Shown here piece after piece: positions 3,632 through 62,222 of a stretch of DNA of 64,000 nt. The stretch's first letter is position 1, and each line of letters opens with the position of its first letter. The notes below the pieces were generated by a model. It saw only the letters and a list, made by a program, of their open reading frames with translations, did no database searches and had not been told where the DNA came from. The stretch lies in contig CP136890.1 in the NCBI GenBank assembly GCA_034359265.1, positions 98,791,501 to 98,855,500 of the forward strand. The letters run 5' to 3'. The position numbers and the translations under genes are program-made. Source of the DNA: Canna indica (lineage: Eukaryota > Streptophyta > Magnoliopsida > Zingiberales > Cannaceae).

Positions 3632-3678
3632 CTTGATTACTAATTTTTTGTGGAGTAGCTAGTCCAAGTTCTTCCAGT

Positions 3679-3686
3679 ATTTATAG
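3679..3686 (-). promoter_or_regulatory. TATA box of the subtilase gene
   Basis: On the minus strand this reads TATAAATA, about 50 bases upstream of the start codon at 3631, implying a short 5' leader. Placement rests only on motif and distance. Confidence 0.55.
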
Positions 3687-5360: not shown

Positions 5361-5902
5361 TAAATAAATATAGTGGGTACGATAAATTAAAATGTCAAAC
5401 ACAAGAAATTTAAAAGAAAATATCTTTTTTCTTCTTTTTCTAAAAATTGATTTAGAAGAAAGAAGGGAATTAAGTTGGGGGCCGCATGTGAACGTACACC
5501 CATGTTTTTGTCAAAACTAGCATTGTTGGCATTTTTTTAAGGGCAATAGGAAGGAGGGATAAATTTAATAGTTTTTCGTTATGAAAGCAGCATTTATAAG
5601 AGTTATATAAAAAGTTAATTAATTGATACATCATGTAAACCGATCTGTAAACTGGTTAGCTCATTGAACCAAATCGAATATGCTTTTGCTTCTGTTGCCC
5701 AATTATAAGATCCAGATATCAACCGAAGTAAATAGATTGCTATGGCTAAAGAACACAATTCAAACAGATGGTAATAGAACCATTCAGCAATATGCCTGAC
5801 AGCCTCATTGCCAATAAGAAAAAAGACAGTGACCAAAAAAATATTCCCTTCGAGATAAATCTGATATAAAGACTAATTGGATAAATAACTCATCTAGGAA
5901 AC

Positions 5903-9105
<3,203 letters not shown>

Positions 9106-14080: not shown

Positions 14081-16639
14081 CTACTGCTGCACCACCAACA
14101 AGGACACTCGGCCGCCGAAGTCCGTCGACACTAGTAAGTCCCCGATGACCCCTAACTCCGGGTACTCGCTCCACATCGACAACCCCGTCGTGAGCGGCGA
14201 CTCCTTCCCTGCGTTTCGTCCCAGTATGAGCAGGTTGAAGTCATTGCTCACCTCACGGATAACCCCCAGCGTCCCCTCGCTGTCCCTCACCATCTCCTCC
14301 CTGTACACCACCCTCTTCCCGTTCACACTCGCTTGTCGGAACCTCATCAGCATCTTATTGTCGGTTAGCTCCTCACTCCCCGGCTCCCACCTATCCCTGG
14401 GCAGGAAGAACCGCACCACCGTCAGCTCGACGGAGCTCCGCTCCACCATGCGCGCGGCGAGAGCGAGCGCTTCGCGGTCATCTGGCCCGCCGAAGAAGTA
14501 GACCGCCACGCGGTGCAAATGCGGCCCTCCGTCGAAGAGCCCATTGTCAACGAAGATCCCGACAGAGCAGGGCGCACACCGGAGGACGTTGAGGTTGACC
14601 GCGTGCACGGGAGTGCAGCCGAAGCTCACGTTGCCGCCCGCCACCATGTGTTTGCGGAAGGGAACGATGACGAGGGACACCTTCTTGTCGAGGGCAAGGG
14701 AGCAGAGGTCGCTGTGCATCGTGCTGTAAGGGGAGAGGCAAACGTACGGGAGTACAGAGACGGCGCCGGAGTACTTCTTCTCGAAAAGCGAGAAGGCGTT
14801 GGTGATGTGTTCGGTCTCCGAGAGTCCGGACGTGGACTTGTCGTGGCGCTTGTAAGGGATGAGGACGGCATCCGTGCGGCCGACGAGCTCGTTGAGGTGA
14901 AGCAGGTAGACGCAAATAGGGGAGTTGATGGAGGGGCCGAGGGCCTCGAGGAGGACGAGGAGGGCGTTGACATTTTCCTGCTGGTAGACGCAGGCGAGGA
15001 CGCCGAGCTCGTGATTGGGCAAGGCATGCTCCACATTCCGACGCATGTAGGCCACGAAGCGGTCCTCCGGCCGATACATGCGCCTAACCATGGGCGTGGT
15101 GCCGCCGCAAATGATGACGATGGAGATAACGACGGCGGTGAAGAGCTGCGTGTCCACCTTCTGCAATCACATAAAATATATACCTTAAAATTAAGCTGTG
15201 ATTAATTTAATTAGTTATAATTAGAGAAATAAGGAGTAGAATTTGGCAATTGGTGAATTTGCACAACGTACATGTTCTACCTTCCACTGCGTAGCATATC
15301 CTACTTCTTGAATGCCCTTGTTGATCATTATGATCCCGAGAGAGAGAACATCGCGGCGCGACATGGTGGTGAAGATGCACGGAAGAATCACGCCCACGAA
15401 CTTGGAAACTACTGTCAATAGCAGAAACAATTCCAGCATCCCCCATTGCCTCACGTCTACCATTGTTGCGAAGTCAATTTGCATCCCGGCGTGGGCTATG
15501 ACCATCGGCGTTAGCAGCCCGGCCACAAAGCGGTCGACCCGTTCCACCAGCGTCGTCCCCAGCGGGGCTCCCCCCGGCAACACCATCCCGAAGAGCAAGG
15601 GCCCGATGATGAAGTCGAACCCGATCATCATGCACATGAACCCGCACGCAAACGCCATTAGCAGCACCGATACGACGCTCGCCTCGCCCAAGAGCGCCCC
15701 CTCCGGCGTGCGCTGCACGATCATGACCACGAGCGGCCTCATCACCAACAAGATGATTCCCGCCACGCCGATGACGGACAGCGGTCCGAGGAGCCCGCGC
15801 AGAGGGTTGTCGGCCCTGCTGCTCAGCACGAACGTGCGCATGCAGCCATCGGCCAAAAGATAGATGATGTCAGCGATGAGAGCAGCAGACATGGCGAGGC
15901 GACCGACCTTGGAGGCGAGGAGGTTCAGCTCACTAAGGAAGCAGGAGACCACGACGTACGAGGTCAGGCTCCATTTGTTGGATATGTAGTGGAGCAAGGA
16001 TATTTTTGCAAAATTAGAAGGCAGCCTGTTCTTCAAGGCGGAGGCAACAAGGTAGACGGAGAGATAAGGAAGCAGAGTGCCGACCACCGCGACGCTCACC
16101 GCCTTCTTGCCTACCTTGGGGATCATGCTCAAGTCAGTCTTCACGCCCAACACAAAGTAGAAGAGCGTGTAGGACATGACAGTCACGGTCTGAAGCTGCT
16201 CCAAGGTCTGACGGGAAAAGAGCAGCTTTTCAAACTTGAGGGTCCGGCCGAGGCAACTCGGACTTAGTAGTATGCCAGCCTGCAACATGAGCATGTCGAT
16301 TAAGAAGCAAAGCATTCATTCGTGGTGGAGATTCATGACCACATATATACCTAGAGATGGAGTCGTTCGATTAGACAAATTAATTACCACAATTTGAGAG
16401 ATGATGATGGGTTGGCCGAGGCGGGCGAGGACGACGTGCGTGACGCGGGAGAAGATGAAGACGATGACGATATGGTACAGGACAATCGGTAAGGCAAAGT
16501 TGAAGGGGTTGTCGCCCAACCATATGCCAGTGGAGGTGGTCGTCATGGCGCGGTAACAGTAGATGGTGTTTGCCTCCGCTGGTGGTGCGTCGGCGCCGAG
16601 ATAATCCGCCATTTGTTCGCTGCCGGCGGTAGTTCCCAT
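14081..16639 (-). CDS. Cation/H+ antiporter of the CHX (CPA2) family, copy 1
   Basis: Predicted endomembrane or plasma-membrane monovalent cation (K+)/H+ exchanger. Exons: 16639-16388, 16279-15281, 15160-14081. They join to 776 residues, normal for CHX. The N-terminal motif is GIWLGDNPFNFALPI. The Na_H_exchanger membrane region runs to about residue 420. The C-terminal half is soluble, with a USP-like region (YFFGGPDDREALALA). The membrane-helix motif normally written SAALVND reads SAALIAD, so the aspartate (Asp221) is kept. The coding exons are GC-rich compared with the flanks. Antisense ORFs of up to 230 codons on the plus strand are by-products of this composition. The paralog at 31153-33831 shares both intron positions. 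Confidence 0.92.
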
Positions 16640-26350: not shown

Positions 26351-26836
26351 TCACGATGACGATGGAGGATGGCTTGGATCATATGGCGGGGTCTGGAGTG
26401 CTTGAGTGTACACCGGCGTGGACTGACTCGAGGACGATGGATTAAATGATGCCGAAGAGATGCCTGCTTCGGGATGACCTGACATGTTGCGTAGCATAGC
26501 TTGTATATCCGACATCATCTGACTCTGGCGCTCCATTATCTCAGTCTGACGCGCGACCGAATCCTCTAGAGTCCTTATTCTGCTACTATGAGCATAACTG
26601 GATCTAGAGGTGGACGGCCGCTCACCAGCGACCGGAGGGGTCGGTGCCCAGAGTGGCCCTAAATTATGTCGAATCAATAATGAACTCCAATAGGGCAATT
26701 CCCAAAAGATACTTTTTTTCACCCAGTTATGTGTTTGGCCAAAACCTGACACTCTTTCATTGCGACCAATTACTATATCTGGAAGTGCTGAAACACGTGC
26801 TAACATTTGTTCACCAGACAACGTCGGTGGTGGCAC
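26351..26836 (-). pseudogene. CACTA C-terminal ORF (TNP-like), fused remnant
   Basis: The N-terminal part (LSGEQMLARVSALPDIVIGR, then NWVKKSIFWELPYW) belongs to the middle of TNP2-type transposases. The C-terminal part is a coiled-coil stretch (RIRTLEDSVARQTEIMERQS) followed by a Ser/Pro-rich tail, as in the second En/Spm protein. This suggests an internal deletion joined two genes. Confidence 0.7.
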
Positions 26837-28413
26837 ATCTCTTTCGACTCTGCCTTAGTAAATTTATTATGATTCCTTCGATATTGATGATTAACCGGTA
26901 GCAATCGACGATGAAAATCAAAGAATGAGATTTTTCGTCCGTTCTGAAGACTGATTGATTTAGAGTGTTCCATACAATACGGACAAGAGAGTCGGCCGTG
27001 AGTGCTCCAAGCAGACAACATGCCGTACGCCGGGAAATCATTGATTGTCCATAAGATCGCGGCCTTTAAATTGAAGTTTTGCTTCCGATGACAATCATAA
27101 GTAACAGCTCCCTCAGTCCACAATGTTTTGAATTCATCTATCAAGGGTTTGAGAAACATGTCAATTTCTTTTCGCGGACCCTTAGGACCCGGAATAATCA
27201 TCGAAAGATAAATAAATTCATCTTTCATGCACATTGACGGTGGCAAATTATAAACTGTCAGCAGCACTGGCCAAACTGAATAAGGAGTTGCAGAATGTCC
27301 AAACGGATTAAAACCATCTGTGCACAATCCCAATATGATATTTCTAGTATCCCTAGCAAATGAAGGATAACATGTATCCAAATGTTTCTATGCTTCACTG
27401 TCAGATGGATGAGTCATTACTGTATCATCACGACTTCTTGCATGCCAACTCATGTAGGGGGCTGTCTTTTCCGACATGAATAATCTTTGAAGCCTCGGTG
27501 TTAGTGGAAAATACCGAAGCACCTTAAACAGGATATTTTTCTGTCGGACCGATTTCTTCTCCTTGTAACGAGGATGTTGACATACAGGGCATTTATCCAA
27601 CTGCACATTTTGTTTATAATATAAAATGCAGTTATTTTGGCACGCGTGTATTTTTTCGTACCAAAGCCCCAATTTTCTCATTAGCTTTTTAGTCTTATAA
27701 AAAGTTGGCTCAAACTTGTTATCAGTAGGCAACATTCCATTAATCAATCTAGCAATCCGATCATACGCAACTCCGCTGATATTACAATCGGCCTTGATGT
27801 TTAAAAGCTGTGTCATTGCTGAAAATCTAGTATATTTAGGACAATTCTCATACAAAGGTTCATCGGCAGCTTTCAACATCTCGTAAAATTATGCAGCTTC
27901 TTTATTCGGTAATTCAATCTCTACCGCAGTTTGTACTTCTGTGATATCAACCGCTGTAGTATCTGGTGGGACTGATGTCTGAAGAACTGGCTGATCAACA
28001 TTATCATTCAGGTGGAATTGACCCCCAAGACTATCAAGTATCATAGTTCTATAGGGATTACATTGACTGGATGAAGAAGCACCGGCAGAGAAAGATTCAC
28101 CATATGTCTGAACGACAGGATTGCTCGACGTCCCGACTTCGCGTGACTCCCCGTGACAAGTCCATAGAAAATATCTTGGTGCAAACCCTTTGCTATATAG
28201 ATGCAGAGTGACAGTCTCCCGATCCAAAAATCGTCCATTCGAATAAATGCGGCACGGACATCGGATTTGATCATCGATGCTAACGAAATTCCGATTCGAA
28301 TAGGCAAAATTTAGGAAGTACGTTACGCCTAATCGAAACTCATTCGTTAAAGCTCCACAATCAAGACGTCGGTACATCCAACTTCGATCAGCCGACATGA
28401 TTCTGTCAATCAA
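26837..28413 (-). pseudogene. TNP2-like CACTA transposase with nonsense mutations
   Basis: Three consecutive pieces read in order. First is a transposase-associated domain (MSADRSWMYRR, then RCPCRIYSNGR). Then comes the Transposase_21 start (EPLYENCPKYTRFSAMTQLL, then CPVCQHPRYK). Last is its core (NIILGLCTDGFNPFG, then SVWPVLLTVYNLPP, then GPKGPRKEIDMFLKPLIDE). The breaks are single stops after NKEAA (27889) and after HPSDSEA (27388). The downstream half of the catalytic region is missing. Confidence 0.88.
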
Positions 28414-28469
28414 TGATAATTTCTTTGGTTAATGTCTTTATGTGAGATTGTCCTATTCCATTCGGGATT

Positions 28470-31152: not shown

Positions 31153-33831
31153 CTAGGGCAACTCATCAGTGGTCGCGTGTACACGATGGTCGGAACCTAG
31201 AAACCCTCGTGCTCCTTGCCTCTTGCTCTTGGGAGAGACATCTGAGGCCTGCACCTCCGATGCCGACATGATGACTTGCTGCCTCACCACCAGCGTTGAC
31301 ACTCCGCCTCCAAAATCCGTCGACGCCAACAAGTCCCCGATAATTCCCAGCTCTGGGTACTCACTCCACGTCGACAACCCCGCCGTCAATACCGACTCCT
31401 TCCCCTCTCTCCGCCCCACTATGAGTAGGTTGAAATCGGGGCTCATCTTGCGGATCACCGCCACCGTCTCCTCGCCGTCCCTCACCAGCTCCTCCCTACA
31501 AACTACCCGCCTTCCATCCACCTTCTCGTGCTGGAACTGCTTCATCATCCTGTCGTCGATCTTCTCCTCCCGCCCTTCTTGCCGCCATTCCTCAGGCGGG
31601 AGGAACCACACTACCGTCAGCTCGATGTTGGTGTAATCCGCCATGCGCACGGCGTAGGCCAGCGCCTCCCGGTCGTCGGGCCCACCGAAGAAGTAGACGG
31701 CCACCCGTTGCAGAAGCGACCCGGCGCCGGAGAGCCCATTGTCGATCAAGATGCCGACGGAGCACGGAGCGTACCGGAGGACCTTGACGTTGACGACCTT
31801 AGCGGCAAGGTTGGAGTTGCTGATGGTGCCGTTGGCCTCGAAGTACTTGTGGAAGGGAAGGATGGCGAGCGTGGCCTTCTTGTCGAGGGCGAGGGAGCAG
31901 ATGTCGTCGTGCATCGTGGTATACGGGCAGATGCAGACGAAAGGGAGGACGGAGACATAGCCGTCCGGGTACTGCTGCTCGAACAACCTCCGGAAGGCGT
32001 TGACGATGAGGTCGGAGTTGGAAGGGGCGTCAGTGGAGGAAGTCCTGCTCTTGTACTTGTGGGGAAGGATGACGGAGTCGGCGCGTCCGACGAGCTGGAT
32101 AAGGTGGAGGAGGTAGAGGCAAATGGGCGAGCTAGTGGTGGGGCCGGAGGTCCTGAGGAGGGCGAGGATGGGGTTGACGTTGTACTGCTCGTGAATGCAG
32201 GCGAGGACGCGGAGCTCGTCGTCCGGCTTGGAGTGCTCGAGGCTGCGGTTCTTGTACGCCACGTAGCGTTCCTCCGGCCGGTACAAGTACTTTATGAGGG
32301 GCGCGGTGCTTGCGCTGATGAAGAGAAGTGTCAAGATGATCACGGTGTATTGCTTTAAATTGATCACCTGCAATCCATATCGAGAAAGTTCGATTCAATT
32401 AATTTGTTTTATATTTATTGGATTAAAGCTAGCCCGCGCATGCATGCATATAGCATGCATGCATGCGGTACGTGCCTTGGACTCATGCAAATTAACAGCG
32501 CCGACTACTTCATCGACTCCCTTGCAGAGCATCATGAGGCCGACGGTGATGGTGTCGCGCTGCGTCATCCTGCAGTAGAGGCAGGGCAAGACGGCCCCTA
32601 TGAACTTGGTGACGATGCACACGCACAAGAACACTTCTATCCACTGCCACCCGCCGACGTCGGGCAAGTACTCGAAGTGCACCCTCATCCCGCTCGAGCA
32701 GAAGGTCAACGGCAAGAATAGGGTTACGACGAAAGTATCCATGCGATGCGCCAAGGTCGCCCCTAGTGGCTCCCCCTCCGGCAGCACCAGCCCGAGGAAG
32801 AAGGGCCCCGTGGTGAGGTCGAACCCCGCCAACTGGGTCACCACTCCGCACGTCAACGCAGTGGACATCACCGCCACTAAGCTCGCCTCGCCCAGAGGTT
32901 TCCCCTCCGGCGTCCGTCTTATGAGATGCACGATGATCGGCCGGAGAACGAAGACGATTAGTCCCAACATACCGAAGAAGGACAGCAATGCGAGCACCCC
33001 CTTGACGGGGGAGCCCATCTTGGCGCTCAGGAGGAAGGTGACGAGGAAAGCCTCGGCGAAGACGTGCAGGACGTGGGAGATGAGGGTGGCCGACAAGGTT
33101 AAGCGGCCGAGCTTGGAGCTGAGGAGGTTGAGCTCGCTAAGGGTGCAGGAGAGAACGATGAAGGAGCTCAGGCTCCATTGGTTGCATACGTTGAGGAGCA
33201 GATGGGTTTTTGAGTACGCATCAGGGAGCCTGTGCTTCATGGAGATGAACAGGAGATAGACGGAGAGGATCGGCAACGCAGTGCTGACGACGGCGATAGC
33301 CAGAGCCTTCCTGCCGACCTTGGGGACCATGTTGAGGTCGGCCTTGAGGCCGGCCATGAAGCTGAAGATCATGTAGCTGAACATGCCGGTGTTGGTGAAC
33401 TGCTCATGGATTTGTGGGGCGAACACTGTTTTCACAAACGTAAAACTTTGCCCGAGGACACAATTCCCCATTAGAAGCCCCGCCTGCACAACAAATTAAT
33501 TATAATCAAGGCTGAAATCAATCAATTAATTGATTAGAAACTTACAATTGCAGGCAGGCATGCAGGCACGTACCACAATCTGAGAGACGTGGATGGGTTG
33601 ATGGAACCGGCGGAGGAGGAGATGCAGGAGGCGATGTAAGATAAAGATGAAGCTGATCTGGTAAAGGAGGTTAGGCAAGGGAAATTGGAGAGGGTCGTCG
33701 CCCAGCCAAAGGCCGCCGGAGTTTGTGGGGTAGGTATGGAAGCAATAGCCATCCCTGATTCCGAATTGCATGACGTCGGCGAAGTCATTGAAGATAGCGG
33801 TTTGGTTTGTCAAGATGGACGTGGATGCCAT
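31153..33831 (-). CDS. Cation/H+ antiporter of the CHX (CPA2) family, copy 2
   Basis: Predicted monovalent cation/H+ exchanger of internal or plasma membranes. Exons: 33831-33574, 33483-32476, 32367-31153. They give 826 residues in one frame. Intron positions match copy 1 (after SQIV, and before the soluble C-terminal half). Intron 2 needs a GC donor (CCAAG|GCACG); the nearby GT would break the frame. The start at 33831 (MASTSILTNQ) is chosen because an upstream in-frame Met at 33969 would add an extra hydrophobic segment not typical of the family. The conserved aspartate of the SAALVND-type motif is histidine here (SATLISH, His223), so ion coupling may be altered. The C-terminal tail after LVVRQQV is longer than in copy 1. 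Confidence 0.9.
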
Positions 33832-49324: not shown

Positions 49325-49505
49325 CCCTCAAATATATAAACAAATATATTTTTAAAAATTAATTTCAAATTATAAAAAATAGCAGGACAATAAAATTGTT
49401 GGGATTAAAAAAATATTCTGGACCAAAACTATCCAATACATTAAAGACTTTTGCCCGACGTTTACAAAACTAAATTTAATTTATATTTTTTGGACCTTAG
49501 TGCAA
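49325..49505. repeat. AT-rich degenerate repeat, left flank of the viral locus
   Basis: The text AAAATATTCTGGACCAAAAC followed by AAAGACTTTTGCCCGACGTTTACAA is a unit of the same family found right of the viral locus at 61175-62222. Confidence 0.65.
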
Positions 49506-49507
49506 TC

Positions 49508-49627
49508 GGAAGAGATTTTCAAATCGAATACAGGTCGCGAGGGGCACGGATTCGAAGTGAAGACGCAGAGAGCGGAAATAGAATTTCCGAAATGAGGAAA
49601 TTATATTGAAGCGGAAGAGGATTACAG
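49508..49627 (-). other. Viral leader fragment (segment-B type)
   Basis: Same sequence as 58362-58480 and 50098-50190. In transcript orientation (minus) it belongs to the leader that follows the segment-B TATA box. It marks the left edge of the viral locus. Confidence 0.75.
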
Positions 49628-49680
49628 TATTAAATCCCACTGGGGGATTTAATACACTCGTTTCAGCAATACATGGCCGA

Positions 49681-50097
49681 CTAGCATTACGCCTGTTCCG
49701 GCTTGTGCCGATGGAAGATTGTACCTCTCATTATGTTGTTTTGAGTATCCTCCTCTGAGGTTGTTTACCCTCGAGTGTATTGTGGGAATATTTCCAAGAG
49801 GAACTTGAGTCTTTGAACTACCTGGCGGATACATTGCCGGTCCCATGATAGGTTCCCTTGGTAATTTTGTAACGTTTGACGATTCAACGGTGGATGTTAA
49901 TACTGTTTCCACCTTTGTCATATTAGTCCTTTTGGAGAGCTGCTTAATGATGGGATAGTCCATTTCGGCAGCATAGACGACTTCAGTGGTGTCATAATTA
50001 TCGCAATCATCATTGCCCTTGATATTATCATCTTCTTCATTGATATCATTATCTTCTTCATCTTCTTCATTTTCTTCATTGATATTATCATCTCCCT
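49681..50097 (-). pseudogene. Coat-protein fragment, minus strand (left arm)
   Basis: Encodes the acidic N-terminal region and the RVNNLRGGYSKQHNERYN block. It shares the variants GSSKTQ and LRGG with 52569-52990 rather than with the neighbouring copy, as expected if the two arms are an inverted duplication. It ends abruptly at 49681, where it meets a 30-bp scrap of segment B. Confidence 0.85.
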
Positions 50098-50224
50098 CCG
50101 CGAGGGGCACGGATTCGAAATGAAGACGCAGAGAGCGGAAATAGAATTTCCGAAATGAGGAAATTATATTGAAGCGGAAGAGGATTACATTGTTGGAAGA
50201 GTAGAACTTTTCGTTATGCGAGGA
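50098..50224 (-). other. Viral leader fragment joined to the coat-protein start (left arm)
   Basis: The leader is in the orientation opposite to the adjoining coat-protein ORF. The same abnormal junction occurs at 52440 on the right arm. Confidence 0.75.
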
Positions 50225-51012
50225 TGTCACTCCAGCTTGAGGAAAATGATGAATTTGATGAACTCCCAAAGTGGGACACATCTGAAGAATCCTACGACGA
50301 AGATAACACCAATGAAAATAGGTATGACCTATTTTTCTTCCAGAGGGGGAAGGGAGATGATAATATCAATGAAGAAAATGAAGAAGATAATGATATCAAT
50401 GAAGAAGATGATAATATCAAGGGCAATGATGATTGCGATAATTATGACACCACTGAAGTCGTCTATGCTGCCGAAATGGACTATCCCATCATTAAGCAGC
50501 TCTCCAAAAGGACTAATATGGCAAAGGTGGAAACAGTATTAACATCCACCGCTGAATCGTCAAACGTTACAAAATTACCAAGGGAACCTATAATGGGACC
50601 GGCAATGTATCCGCCAGGTAGTCCAAAGACTCAAGTTCCTCTTGGAAATATTCCCACAATACACTCGAGGGTAAACAACCTCAAAGGAGGATACTCAAAA
50701 CAACATAATGAGAGGTACAATCTTCCATCGGCACAAGCCGGAACAGGCGTAATGCTAGTCCTTCCTGAAATTCTAGGACAATACAGTGACGTGATCTCAA
50801 GATGGGAATCAATCACGTTAAATCTGATCAATGAGAGAAATTGGACGGATAACAAGTCCAAAATATGCTATATTGAAAACCTATTAGGAGAAACTGAGAA
50901 GAAGACATGGATGCAGTGGAGAATGGCATTCCCTAATGAGTACGACGAGTTAACCAATATAGCTGATGACCCACAAAATGTGTTGTCCCAGATAGAAGAA
51001 TGTTTTTACTAG
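50224..51012 (+). pseudogene. Coat-protein N-terminal region (left arm)
   Basis: 262 codons from MSLQLEENDEF. An acidic Asn/Glu/Asp-rich segment is followed by the capsid region (VLPEILGQYSDVISRWESIT, WMQWRMAFPNEYDEL). It ends at a stop right after EECFY, while homology continues in the -1 frame from 51000. Identical in layout to 52440-51653. In badnaviruses this region is internal to a polyprotein; here nothing upstream of it is viral coding sequence. Confidence 0.85.
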
Positions 51013-51326
51013 AAGATCCAACCACAGGGTCTACTGAAGAGCAGAATAGAGCTTACGAAGACTTGGAGAGACTTTCATGCCAAAACGTGAAAGACTTATT
51101 TGAGTACATAAACGATTACAAAGTTCTAGCTGCGAGATCTGGGAGGATGTATGTGTCTCCAGAGCTATCAGAAAAGTTCTTCAGAAAGATGCCTCCTATA
51201 ATAGGAAAAGAACTGGAGATAGCGTTCGCAGAGAAACACCCGGGAAACACCCGGGAGATAGCGTTCGCAGAGATAGCGTTCGCAGAGAAACACCCGGGAG
51301 ATAGGTATTTTCTTACAAATAGTTAA
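51000..51326 (+). pseudogene. Coat-protein middle fragment (left arm), truncated
   Basis: Continues capsid homology in the -1 frame (NVKDLFEYINDYKVLAARSG) up to IAFAEKHPGN at about 51247. It then runs into the repeat spacer, where IAFAEKHPG is partly repeated. Confidence 0.85.
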
Positions 51327-51417
51327 ATTTTTCAAACTTCTCTGAAACGCTGCCTTCTTGCACTGTTCCTCCAGGTATTGATATGTGAAATGTATTCGGG
51401 GAAATACTCCTAAAGTA
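51248..51417. other. Spacer of the viral inverted repeat
   Basis: The first 55 bases are a patchwork of duplicated GATAGCGTTCGCAGAGA and CACCCGGGA pieces. The rest is coat-protein sequence on the minus strand (IHFTYQYLEE region). The short repeated patches suggest template switching at the fold-back join. Confidence 0.8.
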
Positions 51418-51665
51418 TTTCCCGGGTGTTTCTCTGCGAACGCTATCTCCAGTTCTTTTCCTATTATAGGAGGCATCTTTCTGAAGAACTTTTCTGATAG
51501 CTCTGGAGACACATACATCCTCCCAGATCTCGCAGCTAGAACTTTGTAATCGTTTATGTACTCAAATAAGTCTTTCACGTTTTGGCATGAAAGTCTCTCC
51601 AAGTCTTCGTAAGCTCTATTCTGCTCTTCAGTAGACCCTGTGGTTGGATCTTCTAGTAAAAACAT
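51303..51665 (-). pseudogene. Coat-protein middle fragment (right arm)
   Basis: Same capsid segment as 51000-51247 and 53227-53590, on the minus strand. It extends 170 bases further than the left arm (through LKNLTICKKIPI) before the patchwork junction. Confidence 0.85.
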
Positions 51666-52440
51666 TCTTCTATCTGGGACAACACATTTTGTGGGTCATC
51701 AGCTATATTGGTTAACTCGTCGTACTCATTAGGGAATGCCATTCTCCACTGCATCCATGTCTTCTTCTCAGTTTCTCCTAATAGGTTTTCAATATAGCAT
51801 ATTTTGGACTTGTTATCCGTCCAATTTCTCTCATTGATCAGATTTAACGTGATTGATTCCCATCTTGAGATCACGTCACTGTATTGTCCTAGAATTTCAG
51901 GAAGGACTAGCATTACGCCTGTTCCGGCTTGTGCCGATGGAAGATTGTACCTCTCATTATGTTGTTTTGAGTATCCTCCTTTGAGGTTGTTTACCCTCGA
52001 GTGTATTGTGGGAATATTTCCAAGAGGAACTTGAGTCTTTGGACTACCTGGCGGATACATTGCCGGTCCCATTATAGGTTCCCTTGGTAATTTTGTAACG
52101 TTTGACGATTCAGCGGTGGATGTTAATACTGTTTTCCACCTTTGCCATATTAGTCCTTTTGGAGAGCTGCTTAATGATGGGATAGTCCATTTCGGCAGCA
52201 TAGACGACTTCAGTGGTGTCATAATTATCGCAATCATCATTGCCCTTGATATTATCATCTTCTTCATTGATATCATTATCTTCTTCATTTTCTTCATTGA
52301 TATTATCATCTCCCTTCCCCCTCTGGAAGAAAAATAGGTCATACCTATTTTCATTGGTGTTATCTTCGTCGTAGGATTCTTCAGATGTGTCCCACTTTGG
52401 GAGTTCATCAAATTCATCATTTTCCTCAAGCTGGAGTGAC
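51653..52440 (-). pseudogene. Coat-protein N-terminal region (right arm), frameshifted
   Basis: Counterpart of 50224-51012 with one extra base in an A/T run near 52135. The frame is therefore broken early, and two overlapping ORFs (52442-52110 and 52450-51653) each cover only part. The stop after EECFY is shared with all other copies. Confidence 0.85.
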
Positions 52441-52568
52441 ATCCTCGCATAACGAAAAGTTCTACTCTTCCAACAATGTAATCCTCTTCCGCTTCAATAT
52501 AATTTCCTCATTTCGGAAATTCTATTTCCGCTCTCTGCGTCTTCATTTCGAATCCGTGCCCCTCGCGG
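52440..52568 (+). other. Viral leader fragment (right arm)
   Basis: Segment-B-type leader in plus orientation, from CATCCTCGCATAACG to CCCCTCGCGG. It joins capsid sequence at AGGGAGATGATAATATC. Confidence 0.75.
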
Positions 52569-53239
52569 AGGGAGATGATAATATCAATGAAGAAAATGAA
52601 GAAGATGAAGAAGATAATGATATCAATGAAGAAGATGATAATATCAAGGGCAATGATGATTGCGATAATTATGACACCACTGAAGTCGTCTATGCTGCCG
52701 AAATGGACTATCCCATCATTAAGCAGCTCTCCAAAAGGACTAATATGACAAAGGTGGAAACAGTATTAACATCCACCGTTGAATCGTCAAACGTTACAAA
52801 ATTACCAAGGGAACCTATCATGGGACCGGCAATGTATCCGCCAGGTAGTTCAAAGACTCAAGTTCCTCTTGGAAATATTCCCACAATACACTCGAGGGTA
52901 AACAACCTCAGAGGAGGATACTCAAAACAACATAATGAGAGGTACAATCTTCCATCGGCACAAGCCGGAACAGGCGTAATGCTAGTCCTTCCTGAAATTC
53001 TAGGACAATACAGTGACGTGATCTCAAGATGGGAATCAATCACGTTAAATCTGATCAATGAGAGAAATTGGACGGATAACAAGTCCAAAATATGCTATAT
53101 TGAAAACCTATTAGGAGAAACTGAGAAGAAGACATGGATGCAGTGGAGAATGGCATTCCCTAATGAGTACGACGAGTTAACCAATATAGCTGATGACCCA
53201 CAAAATGTGTTGTCCCAGATAGAAGAATGTTTTTACTAG
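52569..53239 (+). pseudogene. Coat-protein N-terminal part, segment A
   Basis: Capsid region leading into the rest of the viral coding sequence. It has an acidic stretch (NEENEEDEEDNDINEED), then KLPREPIMGPAMYPPG, VLPEILGQYSD and WMQWRMAFPNEYDEL, ending EECFY and a stop. The continuing capsid frame starts at 53227, overlapping by 13 bases in the -1 frame within a run of five T. All three copies share this, so it predates the duplications or was present in the virus. Confidence 0.88.
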
Positions 53240-54510
53240 AAGATCCAACCACAGGGTCTACTGAAGAGCAGAATAGAGCTTACGAAGACTTGGAGAGACT
53301 TTCATGCCAAAACGTGAAAGACTTATTTGAGTACATAAACGATTACAAAGTTCTAGCTGCGAGATCTGGGAGGATGTATGTGTCTCCAGAGCTATCAGAA
53401 AAGTTCTTCAGAAAGATGCCTCCTATAATAGGAAAAGAACTGGAGATAGCGTTCGCAGAGAAACACCCGGGAAATACTTTAGGAGTATTTCCCCGAATAC
53501 ATTTCACATATCAATACCTGGAGGAACAGTGCAAGAAGGCAGCGTTTCAGAGAAGTTTGAAAAATTTAACTATTTGTAAGAAAATACCTATTCCAGGATA
53601 TTACAAAAGGGAAAAGAAGTATGGCCTCAGAAAGGCCAGGACATACAAAGGGAAGCTGCACGACACACATGTGCGTATATTCAAGAAGAAGCATTCCGAT
53701 AAGGTAAGACGTTGTAAGTGCTTCATCTGCGGGGAAGAAGGGCACTTTGCGCAGGAGTGTAAGAGAAAACAAGGTAACATAGCCAGAGCAGCGATCATTG
53801 AAAACCTAGAGTTATCCGATGACTGGGATGTTGTCTCAGTTGAGCAGGACGAGCCTGATAGTGATGCAATATGCTCTTTCTCAGAAGGAGAAGTCGGCAT
53901 GGCAAATACCCTAACATCTGAATTAAGGGAAATGCCATACGAATCCGTTTTTGTTATAATAACAGATGAGAAAACTGAGGCAGAAAATTCATGGAGAACA
54001 AGAGTTACTCTCCCAGAAAATATGAATCAATGTGTTCACAGATGGGAGGATAATAATTCTGAAGTGACAAAAGGCTGCGAGAGATGTACCTGCTGCAAGG
54101 AAATTACAAATCCAAGGATGAGATCGCATTGCAGGATTTGCCTATTAACAGTATGTCCTATGTGCTCTAGATTTAATCTAGGAAGAAAGATTACTATAAA
54201 GAAAGCAAATCCTTTGCCTTATGATGATAAAGATGCTTTAATCAGAGAACTGCTAGAGTACACAGTTTATCTTTTGGCCGAAAATGATAGATTGAAAGAT
54301 GAGATAGATGAGCTGAGAACAAGCAAGGATATATTTGATCTTGAAGAGGAGTTTAGCAATCTAAAGCTTGATCAAAAGAAAGAAGATGATCAAGAAGCTG
54401 AAAAGAAGATCAAAAGGGGGAAACACATTGCAGAAGAAGAAACCCCTACAACAAACAGAAAGCAAACGGGAATAATGTTTAAAGAAATGGCAAACATACT
54501 TTCCTTATAA
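53227..54510 (+). pseudogene. Coat protein C-terminal part with two zinc motifs, segment A
   Basis: 427 codons. A capsid domain (NVKDLFEYINDYKV, PPIIGKELEIAF) is followed by a basic stretch (RIFKKKHSDKVRR). Next comes a CCHC knuckle (Cys165, Cys168, His173, Cys178) of the kind that binds viral nucleic acid. A second cysteine cluster fits C-x2-C-x11-C-x2-C-x4-C-x2-C (residues 287-313), the pattern described for badnavirus and tungrovirus polyproteins. A coiled coil (about 335-365) and an acidic tail finish it. The TAA at 54508 is followed in the same frame by open sequence leading to the protease at 54571, so this is one polyprotein region broken by a stop. Confidence 0.9.
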
Positions 54511-54570
54511 GAAGAAGAAATTCCCCTATTTCCTAAGAGAGGCAGAAGAATTCTAAACCGACTCTATAAC

Positions 54571-57204
54571 ATGGAGATACTTATGGAAATTCCAGGGATG
54601 AGGAACTTCAAAGTTCAAGCCATATTAGACACAGGGGCAACTATCTGCTGTATTGATCAAGATTCGATCCCAGCAGAAGCACTTGAACCAAGTGCTTACC
54701 CTATCCTAATCAATGGGGTAAACTCCCAGCAAACGGCAAGAATGAGGCTAAGAAATGGACAAATGTCGATAGAAGAGAATAAGTTTAAAATTCCATTCAC
54801 TTATGCATTCCCGATGGGGAAAAGAGATGACATCCAAATGCTAATAGGATGCAACTTTATTCGGGCCATGCAAGGAGGCGTCCGAATTGAAGAACAGACA
54901 TTAACATTCTATAAAAAGGTAACCACAATTACCACAAGAGTGGATACTGAAGCTTTGGCCACTGCCGCCATTGATGAACTGAGCTTATCGGAAGAAGAAT
55001 ATTTAGAAGTAAAAAGTGCAGTCACTTATGACAACTTCCGAGAATCAGAACACTTTAAGAAGAAGTTCGGCCCATTACTGCAGAGACTAAAGGAACAAGG
55101 GTTCATTGGAGAAAACCCAGTTCAGCATTGGGCCAAGAACCAGGTAACATGCAAGCTAGATATAATCAATCTAGACATCACTATTCAGGATAGACCTCTG
55201 AAGCACGTCACACCGCTAATGAGAGATCAGTTCGAGAAGCATATTAAAGCCCTTCTCCAGATAGGTGCCATAAGACCAAGCACTAGTCGCCACAGGACAA
55301 TGACAATGATGGTTAATTCAGGCACAAGCGTAGACCCGGTAACAGGGAAAGAGAGCAAGGGAAAGGAAAGGATGGTCTTCAACTACAAGACCTTAAACGA
55401 CAATACCCATAAGGACCAGTACAGTCTTCCGGGTATCAACACCATCCTCAAAAGAATTGACAACAGCCAGATATTTTCTAAATTTGATTTAAAGAGTGGA
55501 TTCCATCAAGTCGCAATGGATCCGGAATCCATCCCCTGGACGGCCTTCACAGTACCAGGAGGACTTTATGAATGGCTCGTTATGCCATTCGGACTAAAAA
55601 ACGCACCTGCCGTCTTTCAAAGGAAGATGGACCAGTGTTTCCAAGGTACAGAAAAATTCATTGCTGTTTATATAGATGACATTCTGGTATTTTCTAAAGA
55701 CGAAAAACAACATGCAAAACACCTGAAGACTATGTTAAAGATCTGTGAAAAATGGGGTTTAGTACTATCCCCTACGAAGATGAAAATTGCAACTAGAGAA
55801 ATTGAATTTTTGGGAGCGGTAATAGGAGATAGTAAGATCAAACTCCAACCGCACATAATCAAAAGGATTGTCACATTTGATGAAGAGAAGCTAAAGAGCA
55901 AAGCAGGACTGAGGTCCTGGCTCGGCATATTAAATTATGCAAGGTCCTATATCCCAAACTTGGGAACACTTTTAGGACCACTGTATTCAAAGACTAGCCC
56001 ACATGATGATAAACGAATCAAACAATCGGATCAACAATTAATCGCAAAGATTAAAGAGTTAGTTCAAGGACTCCCTGACCTAGAGTTACCCCCACCTAGT
56101 GCTTATATAGTCCTTGAAACAGACGGATGCATGGAAGGATGGGGAGGAGTTTGTAAGTGGAAACTCAAAAGGAATGATCCTAGAAGCACGGAAAGATTAT
56201 GTGCTTATGCAAGTGGGAAGTTCTCGACAGTAAAATCCACCATTGACGCAGAAATCCATGTCTGTATGGAAACTCTAACATCACTAAAGATTCATTACCT
56301 GGATCAGAACGAGATTACTCTCAGGACAGATTGTCAGGCCATCATCAGCTTTTATAACAAAACAGCACAGAACAAGCCATCTCGAGTTAGATGGATAAAT
56401 TTTGTGGATTTTATTATAGGCACTGGGGTTCAAATTAACTTTGAACACATAGATGAGAAACTGAATACATTGGCTGACGCTTTGTCAAGATTAACAGCCA
56501 ATCTGGTGCAAATTCAAGAACCAGACTGCATTACTGAACATTTGAGAGAGCTTGAGGGAGCGCTCAAGGAAGCAGAACAAGCTCCCCAGGAGATAGTCAA
56601 ACAATTACACACAACAATCTGTGTAATAAATAAGGTGTTAATGGAAGCTTGTGAGGATTTGGCCTTAATGGCAATCACTTCATGGGATGACGACTGGCAA
56701 GACACCCTAGAGGAGAATGAAACTGTGATAGGAGACATCTTGGAGATAGGTCGAACTATTATTTCTAATGATCCTAACCCACCTCCGCGATGGGACGAGA
56801 TCCCTTACTGGGATGATTATGAGGAAGTAGAGGAGATCTTGAAGCGAGTAGCCAGATATGAAAATTTGATCGGGCAAGAGAATATTACAGAAGAAGCCAC
56901 ATACCCTCACATAAAGGAAGAAGCTATAATCACAGCAATCACAAGCCCACAACAAGACAGACCTAAACAGGTAAAGGAGAACCACCCTGAAGGGGACTAT
57001 GTTGAGGACTTTCTCAGCAAATATTTCAATGAAGACTACTTCAGCACTAGCATCCTGAATGAACAACCAGAAAGCTCGAATACCAGGAGCTATGAACAAG
57101 AAGAAACAAAGCTAGTAGCATATGACGAATTCTCTCCTGAAGAACTGCTACCACAGCTGGATTATGAGACCCTAAGAAAGGGGAAGTATCCAGCCAGATA
57201 CTAA
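54571..57204 (+). pseudogene. Viral protease - reverse transcriptase - RNase H region
   Basis: 877 codons. Pepsin-like protease has active site DTG at residues 20-22 and the IGCNFIRAM block. RT follows with FDLKSGFHQVAMDP and catalytic YIDD at 367-370. RNase H1 shows TDG near 518, TDCQAI and LADALSRL near 635. About 220 C-terminal residues are acidic and of unknown role. The similarity pattern is badnavirus/tungrovirus-like rather than gypsy: no integrase follows. This single stretch is open and its catalytic motifs look intact, but it is cut off from the capsid region by a stop codon. Expression from this locus is uncertain. Confidence 0.93.
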
Positions 57205-57282
57205 ACACAAACAGGGGAAGTGGATAACCCCTAGAATAAGATCCACATTTACTAATTATTTGTTAATTTTGCAGTTTTTACG

Positions 57283-57693
57283 ATGATTCTGGATAACCTC
57301 AAAACCCTGATGAAGAGTCAGCCTCATGTAGCACAAAATACAAGAAAAGATATCACAATCGCTCAATACTGGGCGGTACTAAGCGGAGCCACAGGCCTTG
57401 AAGAGTTGGAGCGACTAACTGGAAAATTATTATTCAAATATCCAAGGTCCATGGACAAAGCCCATCAATGGAAGCAAGAAGTGTATAGCATTCACAACGC
57501 CCAGTCCTTGAAAGCAGTAGAGGAAGTAGGAAGGCTCCTGGCAATATCCTACCTTCAAAAGGCAAGATTAGAAGAAGCTGCAACAAAAGATAATTGGGCA
57601 TCCGACGCACTAGGACCAGTTGAGCACCACATTAAGAATTTGGTCCTGTGCCATAAAATGCTGTGCAGCAGTAGACAAAGCAATGTCTACTAA
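57283..57693 (+). CDS. Small viral ORF of unknown function, copy 1
   Basis: 136 codons between the polymerase region and the promoter. Predicted helical and soluble, with no recognised domain (features: LTGKLLFKYPRSMDKAHQWK, LEEAATKDNW). Position matches the extra ORF downstream of the polymerase in tungroviruses and some endogenous caulimovirids, but I cannot show homology. The second copy at 60310-60720 differs by about five residues and is also open. Confidence 0.75.
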   Translation: MILDNLKTLMKSQPHVAQNTRKDITIAQYWAVLSGATGLEELERLTGKLLFKYPRSMDKAHQWKQEVYSIHNAQSLKAVEEVGRLLAISYLQKARLEEAATKDNWASDALGPVEHHIKNLVLCHKMLCSSRQSNVY

Positions 57694-57713
57694 GGATAAG
57701 AACGAACCTCCAG

Positions 57714-58152
57714 AATCGGACAATATGTCTATATCAAAAGGACAATAATTGTCCTAGTGTGGGTGTAATTAATAGCTGTAAAGTTGATATGTCTATATCA
57801 GAAGGACAATAATTGTCCTAGTGTGAGCTGTAAAGAGAACAACCACTGTGGATGACCAGTAACTCAACGGACGATGGGGCCCAAAGAGCACCCGCATTGA
57901 ATTATTGAGCCTTCCTCCGGAAGTTTCTCTATAAGCCTATAAAAGGCACTTAGTAAGGAGTTGCAGAACGCACTTGAGCAACCAAGGAGTTCTACTTCTC
58001 TTATCTGTGTAATACCTTTGAGAGATATAATCTAAAGCTTTCAAGCTTTCCTTTGTGATCCAACTTGTGTGTTCAACTTTGTGTATTCCTCATTCTGCTC
58101 CCGTGTTCCCAGCAACCAGTGATCACATTGAGAAGTCGCTTCCACCCACTTT
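57714..58152 (+). promoter_or_regulatory. Pararetroviral promoter region, segment A
   Basis: TATA box CTATAAAAG at 57938-57946. Upstream are two near-identical blocks ending GGACAATAATTGTCC, a 7-bp-arm palindrome, and a GATGGGGCCCAA(A/T)GAGCACCCGCA block shared with segment B. The leader starts near GAGTTGCAGAACG. This is the equivalent of the CaMV 35S region by position, just before the primer site. Confidence 0.75.
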
Positions 58153-58164
58153 TGGTATCAGAGC
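58153..58164 (+). other. Minus-strand primer-binding site (tRNA-iMet)
   Basis: TGGTATCAGAGC, the exact motif used by caulimovirids for initiator tRNA-Met priming. It defines position 1 of the viral genome by convention. Confidence 0.9.
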
Positions 58165-58361
58165 CTAGTTTTGGCTTTCAAGTAAATTTTACAGGTATTT
58201 CTTGTCATTCTCTAGTTCCTATACAGCTCTAAATACTGCTTTTTCTAAGGTAAATCTAGGTTATGCATTTAGAAACCCTATCTTGAGGTAGACGATAAAG
58301 AGGGAAGAAGTATTCCAAAGGAAGAAGGTTCCCGTTACGTTCGTAAATACCACAGGGGGAT
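58165..58361 (+). other. Viral leader, segment A
   Basis: About 200 bases of leader after the primer site, without an ORF of note. It then switches to segment-B leader in the opposite orientation at about 58362. Confidence 0.7.
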
Positions 58362-58750
58362 CAGAAGAGATTTTCAAATCGAATACAGGCCGCGAGGGGC
58401 ATGGATTCGAAGTGAAGACGCAGAGAGTGGAAATAGAATTTCCGAAATGAGGAAATTATATTGAAGCGGAAGATGATTACATTGTTGGAAGAGTAGAACT
58501 TCTCGTTATGCGAGGATGTTCTGCACATTCATACTAAGACTCTATTTATAATGAAAGGTTGCTTGCTCCTTAAGCAACTAAGGTTGCTTCCTGACGAAGG
58601 AAGCTCATCTTTAGTGCGGGTGCTCATTGGGCCCCATCGACCACTAAATGATGGCTTTCCACAAGTGGGAAGTGACCATACACACTAAGGCAATAATTGC
58701 CCGACACAATTATTAAAGACAAGTCGAAGTCGGAGCCGATCGTCGAGGTG
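58362..58750 (-). promoter_or_regulatory. Second pararetroviral promoter and leader, segment B, minus strand
   Basis: On the minus strand: GATGGGGCCCAATGAGCACC, then TATAAATAGA (TATA, 58541-58550), then GTGCAGAACATCCTC and the leader down to 58362. Each block parallels segment A in order and spacing, but the sequences clearly differ, so B comes from a related but distinct genome or genome segment. Confidence 0.75.
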
Positions 58751-58899
58751 CCCATGTGATGTGGGTCCCTTGATATTCGGCTTCTCGATCCTTCGCGGCA
58801 TCGGATCATCCAGCGGTCCGTGCTGTCTCGCCTTCTGTGTAAGGAGAAGAGGATCTCCGAGTTCCTCCGCAACCTACAAAACAAACTCTAATAAAAATA

Positions 58900-59336
58900 T
58901 TAGATAATTGTGGCAATTTGTTCCCGGTGGTACGCCACTTCCGCACAGTTCATCTTCAATCTGGAGCCTTATGTTTTAAACCGTTGATGGACTCCGGCGG
59001 TGCACGTTCTGTTATGTTCAGAACCCAGATCATGAAGTGGTTGTCCATGTCTGCGTTCATACATATAGAACATGGCGGGGTAAAAATTTGCGTCCTTCGT
59101 AGGAGCCGTACGTGCAAAGCCAGAACATGAAGTGATAGTCCATGTCTGCTTTCTTCGTAGGCAGAGTCAGAACATGAAGTGGTAGTCCATGTCTAATTCC
59201 TTTGTAGGAGCAATATAAGTCCCCACAACAAGGATCAACGACTACTGGATGATCTTCAGCGTCCAATCCGTAGTCATCGTCCGATCTGCACCTGTGGTGA
59301 TTCTGTCCTGGCGGTTCACCACTACCGCTTGAATCT
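58900..59336 (-). repeat. Non-coding part of segment B with tandem motifs
   Basis: AACATGAAGTGGT(A/T)GTCCATGTCT recurs about three to four times between 59030 and 59190, spaced roughly 50-70 bases. It lies between the B ORF and the B promoter. Confidence 0.6.
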
Positions 59337-60011
59337 TCAGCAGGGTCCTACTCCTGTGCTCGTTTCAGGAGTCTTGGATTTCTTGACGCTGCCCCGCTTC
59401 TTTTCGCAATTTCTCGTGAAATGACCCTCTTCACCGCAGTTGAAACATTTGCCTCGCCTAGCACGCGGCTTGGCTAAGCGGTATTCGGATTTTGCATTTT
59501 TCCGAGGGTCGATCTTCTTCAGCAGACCTTTACACTTCGAGCAATACATGGCCGATTCAAGCGGGATAACTTCTGATGATCTTTTATAAATTATTAAATC
59601 TTCAATTTCATCCCCACCCTCCTTTAAAAGTGAAATTCCTAGAATTTCATCATTTCCTTCTTCCGATTTACCTTCTCTTTGTGGAAGAGAGAACGGAATA
59701 GATTTCGGCATGTTTTGATGTCGGACCTTTGAGGTTGAAATTCCTGGAATTTCACCATCCTCTACTTCTGAATCTTCTCGATCAAGAGATGGTTGGGGTT
59801 CCGACCGCGCCACAGTGAGATGTCGGACGACCGTCGCGCCGTCTTTTTCCTCGACATCTGATTTATAACCCGTACAGATCTTGAGGACCTTGATCTGTAG
59901 GTTTATCTCTTCAACAGACGATGGTATGATTGCCATCGTATCCTTCTTTTCAGCGAAGAGATGATCCCGCAAGAGTCTACTCCTTCCAATTGATAGCGCT
60001 CGCCTCTGCAC
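59337..60011 (-). CDS. Zinc-knuckle protein of viral segment B, unidentified
   Basis: 224 codons. Features: two similar acidic motifs (GEIPGIS at 87-92, DEILGIS at 121-127), a CxxC pair (Cys157, Cys160), a basic stretch, and a CCHC knuckle (Cys189, Cys192, His197, Cys202) followed by a Lys/Ser tail. The knuckle suggests nucleic-acid binding. It does not align by eye with the segment-A capsid. The start is uncertain: MAIIPSS at residue 26 is an alternative, and an overlapping frame upstream (60235-59903) may carry part of a preceding viral protein. Confidence 0.6.
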   Translation of the reverse strand: MQRRALSIGRSRLLRDHLFAEKKDTMAIIPSSVEEINLQIKVLKICTGYKSDVEEKDGATVVRHLTVARSEPQPSLDREDSEVEDGEIPGISTSKVRHQNMPKSIPFSLPQREGKSEEGNDEILGISLLKEGGDEIEDLIIYKRSSEVIPLESAMYCSKCKGLLKKIDPRKNAKSEYRLAKPRARRGKCFNCGEEGHFTRNCEKKRGSVKKSKTPETSTGVGPC

Positions 60012-60106
60012 TCTTCAAAAAGTGTTGGGGGTATTCGATCGTTTAAGGGTATTGCAATCATACCTAGATGGCAATCATACCTAGTAGATTTCTCGCAACA
60101 CCCCCC

Positions 60107-61174
60107 ATACCAGGAGCTATGAACAAGAAGAAACAAAGCTAGTAGCAGATGACGAATTCTCTCCTGAAGAACTGCTACCACAGCTGGATTATGAGACCCT
60201 AAGAAAGGGGAAGTATCCAGCCAGATACTAAACACAAACAGGGGAAGTGGATAACCCCTAGAATAAGATCCACATTTACTAATTATTTGTTAATTTTGCA
60301 GTTTTTACGATGATTCTGGATAACCTCAAAACCCTGATGAAGAGTCAGCCTCATGTAGCACAAAATACAAGAAAAGATATCACAACCGCTCAATATTGGG
60401 CGGTACTAAGCGGAGCCACAAGCCTTGAAGAGTTGGAGCGACTAACTGGAAAATTATTATTCAAATATCCAAGGTCCATGGACAAAGCCCATCAATGGAA
60501 GCAAGAAGTGTATAGCATTCACAACGCCCAGTCCTTGAAAGCAGTAGAGGAAGTAGGAAGGCTCCTGGCAATATCCTACCTTCAAAAGGCAAGATTAGAA
60601 GAAGCTGCAACAAAAGATAATTGGACATCCGACGCACTAGGACCAGTTGATCACCACATTAAGAATTTGGTCATGTGCCATAAAATGCTGTGCAGCAGTA
60701 GACAAAGCAATGTCTACTAAGGATAAGAACGAACCTCCAGAATCGGACAATATGTCTATATCAGAAGGACAATAATTGTCCTAGTGTGAGTGTAATTAAT
60801 AGCTGTAAAGTTGATATGTCTATATCAGAAGGACAATAATTGCCCTAGTGTGAGCTGTAAAGAGAACAACCACTATGGATGACCAGTAACTCAATGGACG
60901 ATGGGGCCCAAAGAGCACCCGCATTAAATTATTGAGCCTTCGAGAGATTGAGAACACACTTGAGCAACCAAGGAGTTGCAGAACACACTTGAGAAACCAA
61001 GGAGTTCTACTTCTCTTATCTGTGTAATACCTTTGAGAGATATAATCTAAAGCTTTCAAGCTTTCCTTTGTGATCCAACTTGTGTGTTCAACTTTGTGTA
61101 TTCCTCATTCTGCTCCCGTGTTCCCAGCAACCAGTGATCAGATTGAGAAGTCGCTTCCGCCCACTTTTGGTATC
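60107..61174 (+). repeat. Direct repeat, copy 2: viral 3' end, right edge of the locus
   Basis: Copy of 57079-58159. The promoter has lost its TATA box by a local rearrangement near 60940-60990, where the GAGCAACCAAGGAGT block is duplicated. It ends TGGTATC, seven bases into the primer-binding site, then host AT-rich repeat. Confidence 0.9.
60310..60720 (+). CDS. Small viral ORF of unknown function, copy 2
   Basis: 136 codons, the same as 57283-57693 with about five residue changes (for example GATSLEEL for GATGLEEL, PVDHH for PVEHH). Open throughout, but the downstream promoter is damaged. Confidence 0.75.
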   Translation: MILDNLKTLMKSQPHVAQNTRKDITTAQYWAVLSGATSLEELERLTGKLLFKYPRSMDKAHQWKQEVYSIHNAQSLKAVEEVGRLLAISYLQKARLEEAATKDNWTSDALGPVDHHIKNLVMCHKMLCSSRQSNVY

Positions 61175-62222
61175 TTATATCATAAAAAATATCATGAATT
61201 AAAATAAATTTTTTAAAGTTATTCAACTACTTTAGACTTCAAGCTAGACACGTTTCCCTAAAATCTATAAAACCAAATCTAAATTACAAAATGATATATT
61301 TTGGTACATGTTTTTTTAGACTCTGTACCTTTCTATGTGATACAAATATATTTTATGAATTAAAATTAGTTTTTTATAATAATAAAACTAAAAAATAATA
61401 GTGATGTCTACAGTTTTTTATATAACTCTAAAAAATTAATTGTAGTTGACGAAATATATATTTTTATGATATAAAAGAGGTGCTATGGGCAATAAAAGTA
61501 TTTTAAGTCAAAATATTTCACTGCTTTCATTTTAAATTAATATTATATATTTTGAGCAAAAATCTTTAACATATTGAAAACTTTTGCCAAAATTTATAAT
61601 AATTTTAAAAAATTAATTTTAATTCATAAAATATATTTTTATAATGTAAAAGAGGTTCTAGTGTCTAAAATAATATTTTGGACCAAAATATTTTACTATT
61701 TTTAATTTAAATTTAGTATTATAAAATTTTAACAAAAGTCTTTTGCCCAAAGCCTAGAATGACTTCATAACTCTAAAAATTAATTTTAAATCATGATTTT
61801 TGTTTTGATATGAAAGTAGTGCTAAAGAATTAAAAAATATTATACAAAATATTTTATTATTTTCAATTTAAATTTAGTGTTATAGACATTAGGCAAAGTC
61901 TCAAATGCAAGACTTTTACCCCAAGTTTATAATTTCATAAATCTAAAAAATTAATTTTAATTCATGAAATATTCTATGATATAAAAGATGTATTAGCATC
62001 TAAAAAAATATTTTTAATCAAAATATATCATTGTTATAATATATATTTAATTTTATAGATTTTGCGCAAAATTCTCTAATGAATTAGAGAGTTTTGGTTC
62101 AAAATACTTTTTAAGACCATAGTGCCTTCTTTTTATCATAAAAACACACATTTTATTGATTAAAATTATTTTTTTAGATTTTCAAAAAAAAATTAAATGC
62201 ATTATAAACTTTTTGCGAAGAA
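61175..62222. repeat. AT-rich degenerate tandem repeat, right flank of the viral locus
   Basis: Units of about 170 bases marked by AAATTAATTTTAATTCAT(A/G)AAATAT, followed by ATAAAAGAGGT and TTTTGCC(C/A)AAA text, recur at about 61357, 61434, 61612, 61782, 61953 and 62155. The same family flanks the viral locus on the left. Confidence 0.7.

Follow-up and report, generated by a model that had tools for sequence, protein, structure and literature searches.

Endogenous pararetroviruses (EPRVs) rearranged into an inverted-repeat conformation are known from the ‘TSA’ loci of tomato (Valli et al. 2023, via PMC10377300). These caulimovirid loci yield 22-nt small interfering RNAs (siRNAs) that act in trans, similar cases are described in soybean, and siRNA immunity derived from such loci is already a published concept (PMC10377300). 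The same source describes the entry of caulimovirid DNA into plant chromosomes as speculative, and the endogenous banana streak virus of Musa balbisiana as replication-competent. Grass genomes harbor multicopy, non-autonomous pararetroviruses without reverse transcriptase and RNase H (RT/RH), which recombine and share regulatory sequence with RT-bearing partners (Chen et al. 2017, PMC5491270). Here, we analyzed a 64,000-nt stretch of chromosome 1 of Canna indica (positions 98,791,501-98,855,500; hereafter ‘the window’), free of Ns, in which a near-perfect viral palindrome lies within a cluster (overall span ~49.5-61.2 kb) composed of fragments of a badnavirus-like virus and of a second element, termed JE.

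Canna and Musa balbisiana belong to the same plant order; as opposed to the banana virus, the virus copy in the window is broken. Compared with tomato ‘TSA’, the Canna locus resides in a monocot host, derives from a badnavirus-like virus and carries a second element in its arms. Our analysis indicates that the cluster is probably a passive and recent product of the joining of abortive reverse-transcription products of the virus and JE.

A near-perfect palindrome is the outer fold of a four-copy array

The arms of the inverted repeat, 49679-51250 and 51415-52987, are 99.87% complementary over 1,573 aligned positions and enclose a 164-nt spacer. These boundaries replace those of a preliminary description (49681-51247 and 51418-52984, spacer 170 nt), whose claim of a near-perfect inverted repeat is thereby confirmed. 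The arms differ only by a mismatch at their inner edge (51248/51417) and a 1-nt indel within an A run (50530/52135), in agreement with recent formation, one of the causes that had been put forward for their near identity. A 400-nt slice across the center (51133-51532) folds at a predicted -268 kcal/mol, as compared to a mean of -104 (sd 5.4) for 100 shuffles, and, among the listed inverted repeats of at least 150 nt in the window that lie beyond the viral cluster, none exceeds 78% identity. The palindrome is therefore not a chance feature and, judging from the modeled slice, a transcript through its center would fold into double-stranded RNA (dsRNA), as had been proposed.

Profile searches of the open reading frames (ORFs) in the window identified a coat domain in one ORF (Caulimovir_coat_dom, E 1.3e-45) and aspartic protease, RT and RNase H domains in the following ORF, bearing out the suspected viral origin. 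The arms had been taken to represent a capsid region; they do contain the start of the capsid domain, but each also includes an acidic region, N, and 126 nt of JE.

Four copies of the N/capsid-start sequence alternate in orientation (-, +, - and +), and the palindrome is just their outer fold. Self-comparison revealed further inverted pairs nested within it (51301-52315/52569-53591, 98.5%; 49679-50097/50351-50760, 96.7%). Copies 1 and 2, and likewise copies 3 and 4, are linked via the 126-nt JE piece, and copies 3 and 4 differ by 5 substitutions, one 9-nt and one 1-nt indel over ~1,023 nt. Since both arms contain the N/JE and the JE/N recombinant joint as well as the differences of the copy 3/4 type, they are copies of one already chimeric N-JE-N unit that underwent inverted duplication. 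The interval between copies 2 and 3 is occupied by a 50-nt filler (51251-51300) made of repeated copies of the neighboring 15-34 nt of viral sequence. Filler that repeats adjacent sequence is a pattern typical of polymerase-theta end joining.

The virus copy in the window is broken and looks young

For comparison, 20 stretches of the genome, representing 18 separate places, were fetched from a list of the best 40 of 316 candidates (numbered loci, L009 and so on). Virus or JE sequence was present in 19 of them, the exception being L019. No movement protein (MP) match was found among the scanned ORFs of the window; instead, the start of N is joined to JE. In all 14 readable rows of sister loci (leaving out that of L010), other sequence, common to these loci, lies upstream of N, and in L024 this sequence falls within an ORF that matches MP weakly (PF01107, E 0.006, below the cut-off). 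The window copy hence looks like a deleted member of its family. Moreover, its N and capsid protein (CP) regions are in different frames, and a stop codon separates CP from POL in the window, being absent in 13/13 sister rows (from 12 separate copies, L009 and L010 being overlapping stretches; no row was obtained from 7 of the 20 loci). With a frame change, a stop codon and a missing MP region, the copy is broken. The viral TATA box lies 215 nt upstream of a tRNA-Met primer-binding site at 58153.

An RT tree of 27 pieces (26 of 120 listed proteins plus the window) placed the window as sister to Rhynchospora endogenous polyproteins (P0002 and P0003; support 99/96), corroborating the proposed badnavirus-like affinity. 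These closest relatives in the tree, with up to 81% identity, stem from another host family, and a POL search of viral contigs returned no relative. Within the Canna genome, the nearest RT relatives (best 40 of 1,045 candidates) are only 89-91% identical, and the insertion therefore looks distinct and young.

This distance bears on the question of whether the palindrome might instead be an old inverted repeat, held identical by gene conversion or selection. Such maintenance could account for arms without internal substitution outside the homopolymer indel, while the copy 3/copy 4 pair diverged by 5 substitutions and 2 indels. Against it, the insertion appears young anyway from its scored RT relatives, and 0 substitutions in 1,569 nt set an upper bound of ~74-147 thousand years at substitution rates of 1.3e-8 and 6.5e-9, values assumed for dating. 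We thus consider an old, maintained repeat improbable.

JE is a candidate mini-pararetrovirus

The 126-nt piece within the arms recurs at 58390-58519, inside a JE copy at 58347-60021. JE measures ~2 kb. It has a TATA promoter and a tRNA-Met primer site and contains a single zinc-knuckle ORF, with no reverse transcriptase. In L013, tandem JE units of 2,033 nt each (2019-6652, primer sites 2,033 nt apart) contain the TATA region, the tRNA-Met primer site and an ORF of 199 aa with zinc knuckles as its sole Pfam matches; no further sense ORF of at least 100 aa was found in these units. Five one-strand primer sites, one with a mismatch, lie 857-2,084 nt apart in L011 (2296-9633). This spacing suggests several unit lengths of one small replicon.

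JE-like stretches yielded at least 81 matches in the genome (best 40 of 673 candidates), and the JE protein a single match at E ≤ 0.001, namely Canna indica Cni_G02349 (70 candidates scored). Among the titles returned by our literature searches, no description of this Canna virus or of JE was found. JE matches also occur on both strands within a few kb at C6:17046-17059 kb and C4:74617-74620 kb, possibly representing more inverted pairs.

Terminal repeats of JE span 329 nt in L034, 139 nt in L035 and ~350-400 nt in L036; their starts differ and their 3′ ends lie at the primer site (by eye). An LTR retrotransposon was considered and set aside, given that these repeats vary in length, end 3′ at the primer site and show no TG..CA ends in the three loci. 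The ends fit a pararetrovirus whose minus strand begins at the primer site. In L035 (1353-3664) and L036 (1141-3531), the start of POL (protease region) comes immediately after JE in sense orientation; JE is preceded by an MP-like stretch in L035 (by eye) and by CP sequence in L036. JE and the virus have in common a short promoter block and a similar spacing of 172-234 nt between TATA and primer site, with one JE row lacking a TATA; any more extensive homology would be conjectural.

We consider JE a candidate mini non-autonomous pararetrovirus, and the more novel part of the locus. Like the grass elements, it is multicopy and devoid of RT/RH, and would be a pararetrovirus-type element that recombines with an RT-bearing partner; unlike grass eRTBVL2 and ePVCVL, which retain MP, CP and protease domains (PMC5491270), it has a single zinc-knuckle ORF. 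Two other interpretations of its presence in the arms were dropped: the 126-nt piece as a native viral leader, because sister loci differ upstream of N and the piece matches JE at 96%, and the JE/N joint as a splice junction, because sister loci simply continue upstream of N.

Several cluster joints lie at reverse-transcription landmarks

Seven segment ends fall within -10 to +8 nt of a primer site (by eye): the left cluster edge at 49505, the JE end at 58346, the right cluster edge at 61173, and JE ends in L013, L034, L035 and L036, with the JE ends in L011, L012 and L027 left out of the count. The JE end at 58341-58346 lies in the complement of the JE primer site. A second landmark is the predicted 5′ end of the JE RNA. 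The JE/N joint coincides with it, at a distance of 31 nt from where the JE TATA box begins, and falls inside a 4-nt ATGT common to both partners (50224-50227); the position of the joint is as expected of a strong-stop cDNA run off its template. Similarly, the JE copy in L035 begins ~37 nt from its own TATA (by eye). Among the places listed (best 40 of 316 candidates), JE adjoins N nowhere outside the window.

The following sequence of events could account for the cluster. JE cDNA would have been extended to the RNA 5′ end and joined to viral DNA at the start of N within the shared ATGT. The resulting JE/virus chimera would then have been joined head to head with another viral fragment, and the N-JE-N unit duplicated in inverted orientation, with closure by end joining in which the end of the unit served repeatedly as its own template, leaving a polymerase-theta-like filler. 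Finally, two ends situated at primer-binding sites would have linked the cluster to the chromosome.

Several observations weigh against this account, in addition to the composition of the genome survey and its controls described below. None of the joints at 49626/49679, 50097/50098 (where the JE piece ends 44 nt before its primer site), 51250/51301, 60021 and 60107 falls on a primer site or RNA start, and the upstream JE ends in L034 and L036 are not at landmarks. The JE transcription start is itself a prediction from TATA spacing. Five nucleotides common to the virus and JE render the crossover at 58341-58346 ambiguous, and shared words of 4-5 nt are possible by chance. A single genome, moreover, cannot separate palindrome formation before integration from formation after it.

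The segments of the cluster are compiled in Table 1. Its flanks (49343-49428 and 61598-61688) have an AT-rich repeat in common (73%), and repeats of this kind may therefore have been where the virus landed; visual inspection showed no target-site duplication.

Table 1 Features of the viral cluster (positions within the window).
Feature	Position	Strand	Basis or remark
JE fragment, R-U5 part; left cluster edge, ~7 nt from JE primer-binding site	49505-49626	-	96% to 58360-58481; edge by eye
Filler with short fragment like JE zinc-knuckle ORF region	49627-49678	.	By eye
Viral copy 1 (N region), in left arm	49679-50097	-	Self-comparison
Palindrome left arm	49679-51250	+	99.87% complementary to 51415-52987
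JE piece of left arm, from 44 nt short of primer site to predicted JE transcription start	50098-50223	-	96% to 58390-58519
Viral copy 2 (N and capsid start), in left arm	50224-51250	+	Self-comparison, domain search
Templated-insertion filler	51251-51300	.	Repeats of adjacent viral 15-34 nt
Viral copy 3 (capsid start and N)	51301-52442	-	98.5% to 52569-53591, shared part
Palindrome right arm	51415-52987	-	Self-comparison
JE piece of right arm, JE sense	52443-52568	+	Self-comparison
Viral copy 4: N with truncated 5′ end, capsid ORF with zinc knuckle	52569-54510	+	N and CP frames differ
Viral POL ORF, 897 aa: aspartic protease, RT, RNase H	54511-57204	+	Stop codon between CP and POL
ORFd, small downstream ORF, 136 aa	57283-57693	+	
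Viral TATA box (57938) to tRNA-Met primer-binding site (58153-58164)	57938-58164	+	
JE copy minus ~355 nt of leader; TATA 58543-58550 (-); zinc-knuckle ORF 59337-60014 (-)	58347-60021	-	
Filler	60022-60106	.	
Second viral fragment, with POL end, ORFd and promoter region; stops within own primer-binding site, right cluster edge	60107-61173	+	96.1% to 57080-58159; edge by eye

Inverted repeats and fragment orientation elsewhere in the genome

Inverted repeats of at least 500 nt and at least 90% identity, mostly of virus or JE sequence, were present in 7 of the 20 fetched loci (L009, L012, L013, L016, L017, L021 and L027), which we had chosen ourselves from a list in which opposite-strand pairs were already visible, and in none of a small control set of five random loci. 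The comparison of 7/18 with 0/5 is not significant (Fisher p = 0.13), while p drops to 0.027 when the rest of the window counts as five more controls. One of these repeats, at 2638-3945 of L016, is a continuous palindrome of 96.6% identity with arms of ~650 nt, almost no spacer and its turning point inside the RT gene.

In the comparable inverted repeats elsewhere, the two arms are 1-4% divergent, an observation that also speaks to the concern that the palindrome is an assembly artefact, for instance from unsplit hairpin reads. The near identity of the arms is what such an error would produce, and a published Canna indica assembly was built from nanopore reads (PMC9371203, 725.7 Mb anchored; the assembly analyzed here comprises 752.9 Mb). 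Conversely, divergent arms elsewhere are not one strand read back, the center of the palindrome is asymmetric, with a 164-nt spacer that includes the 50-nt filler, the flanks beyond the two arms differ, and the arms contain a nested fold. An artefact is accordingly very unlikely in our estimation.

Neighboring non-collinear fragments were in the same orientation in 17 cases and in opposite orientation in 19 (16 and 16 outside the window), a count that includes native tandem joins and one pair counted twice from the overlapping L011 and L012; 19 opposite out of 36 gives a binomial p of 0.87. By this coarse test, orientation looks random, and a palindromic shape is therefore expected without selection. 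Selection for a hairpin is not needed to explain the arrangement.

Potential of the locus as a source of siRNAs

The preliminary description had suggested that the palindrome could act as a hairpin-RNA locus. A functional locus of this kind would be transcribed and diced into 21-24 nt siRNAs that silence related viruses or endogenous copies in trans. Such a function is compatible with the passive origin favored above, and both can hold. Structurally, the 1.57-kb arms and the strong fold of the central slice fit, and tomato and soybean provide a precedent in the form of inverted-repeat caulimovirid loci that yield 22-nt siRNAs (PMC10377300). Given that 21-mers of the arms recur in 19/20 fetched loci (1 to 259 positions each) and in 0/5 random loci, and 22-mers in 18/20, the siRNAs would have targets. 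That said, 11/20 loci share at most 12 arm 21-mer positions, L021 shares none, and the arms lack the RT gene.

With respect to transcription, two TATA regions were recognized (no search for host promoters was made): that of the virus at 57.94 kb points away from the palindrome, and that of JE at 58.54 kb is directed toward it. The latter is 5.5 kb off, however, and two AATAAA motifs lie on the same strand between 58517 and 53000. The random-looking orientation of fragments likewise argues against a hairpin function. If the locus were read through, the product would be a long dsRNA that, as we infer from known pathways, plant Dicers could cut. On balance, a functional hairpin-RNA locus is a possibility to which we give rather little weight; the structure would allow the siRNA reading, and to call the locus one of siRNA immunity would require reads.

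Other features of the window

Outside the cluster, the window contains two stretches resembling CHX-type cation/H+ antiporters in GC-rich parts (14081-16315 and 31153-33495; PF23256/PF23259, with PF00999 in the second), DNA-transposon fragments (26800-28428; PF02992 Transposase_21, PF13963) and a weak self-palindrome of ~1 kb with 69% identity (4311-5331). The best named matches of the CHX-like host protein all came from monocots.

Implications for endogenous pararetroviruses

The outer edges and some inner joints of the cluster lie at primer sites or at the predicted RNA start, and one filler is self-templated, a combination suggesting that unfinished reverse-transcription products were linked by end joining. 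A wider proposal, which we offer tentatively, is that JE is a ~2-kb helper-dependent mini-pararetrovirus whose abortive cDNAs recombine with a badnavirus-like virus at reverse-transcription landmarks, and that the resulting chimeras seed palindromes which become dsRNA silencing loci. If true, a non-autonomous pararetrovirus of 2 kb would be markedly smaller than its grass relatives. The locus extends to a monocot the idea of inverted-repeat EPRVs developed in tomato and soybean.

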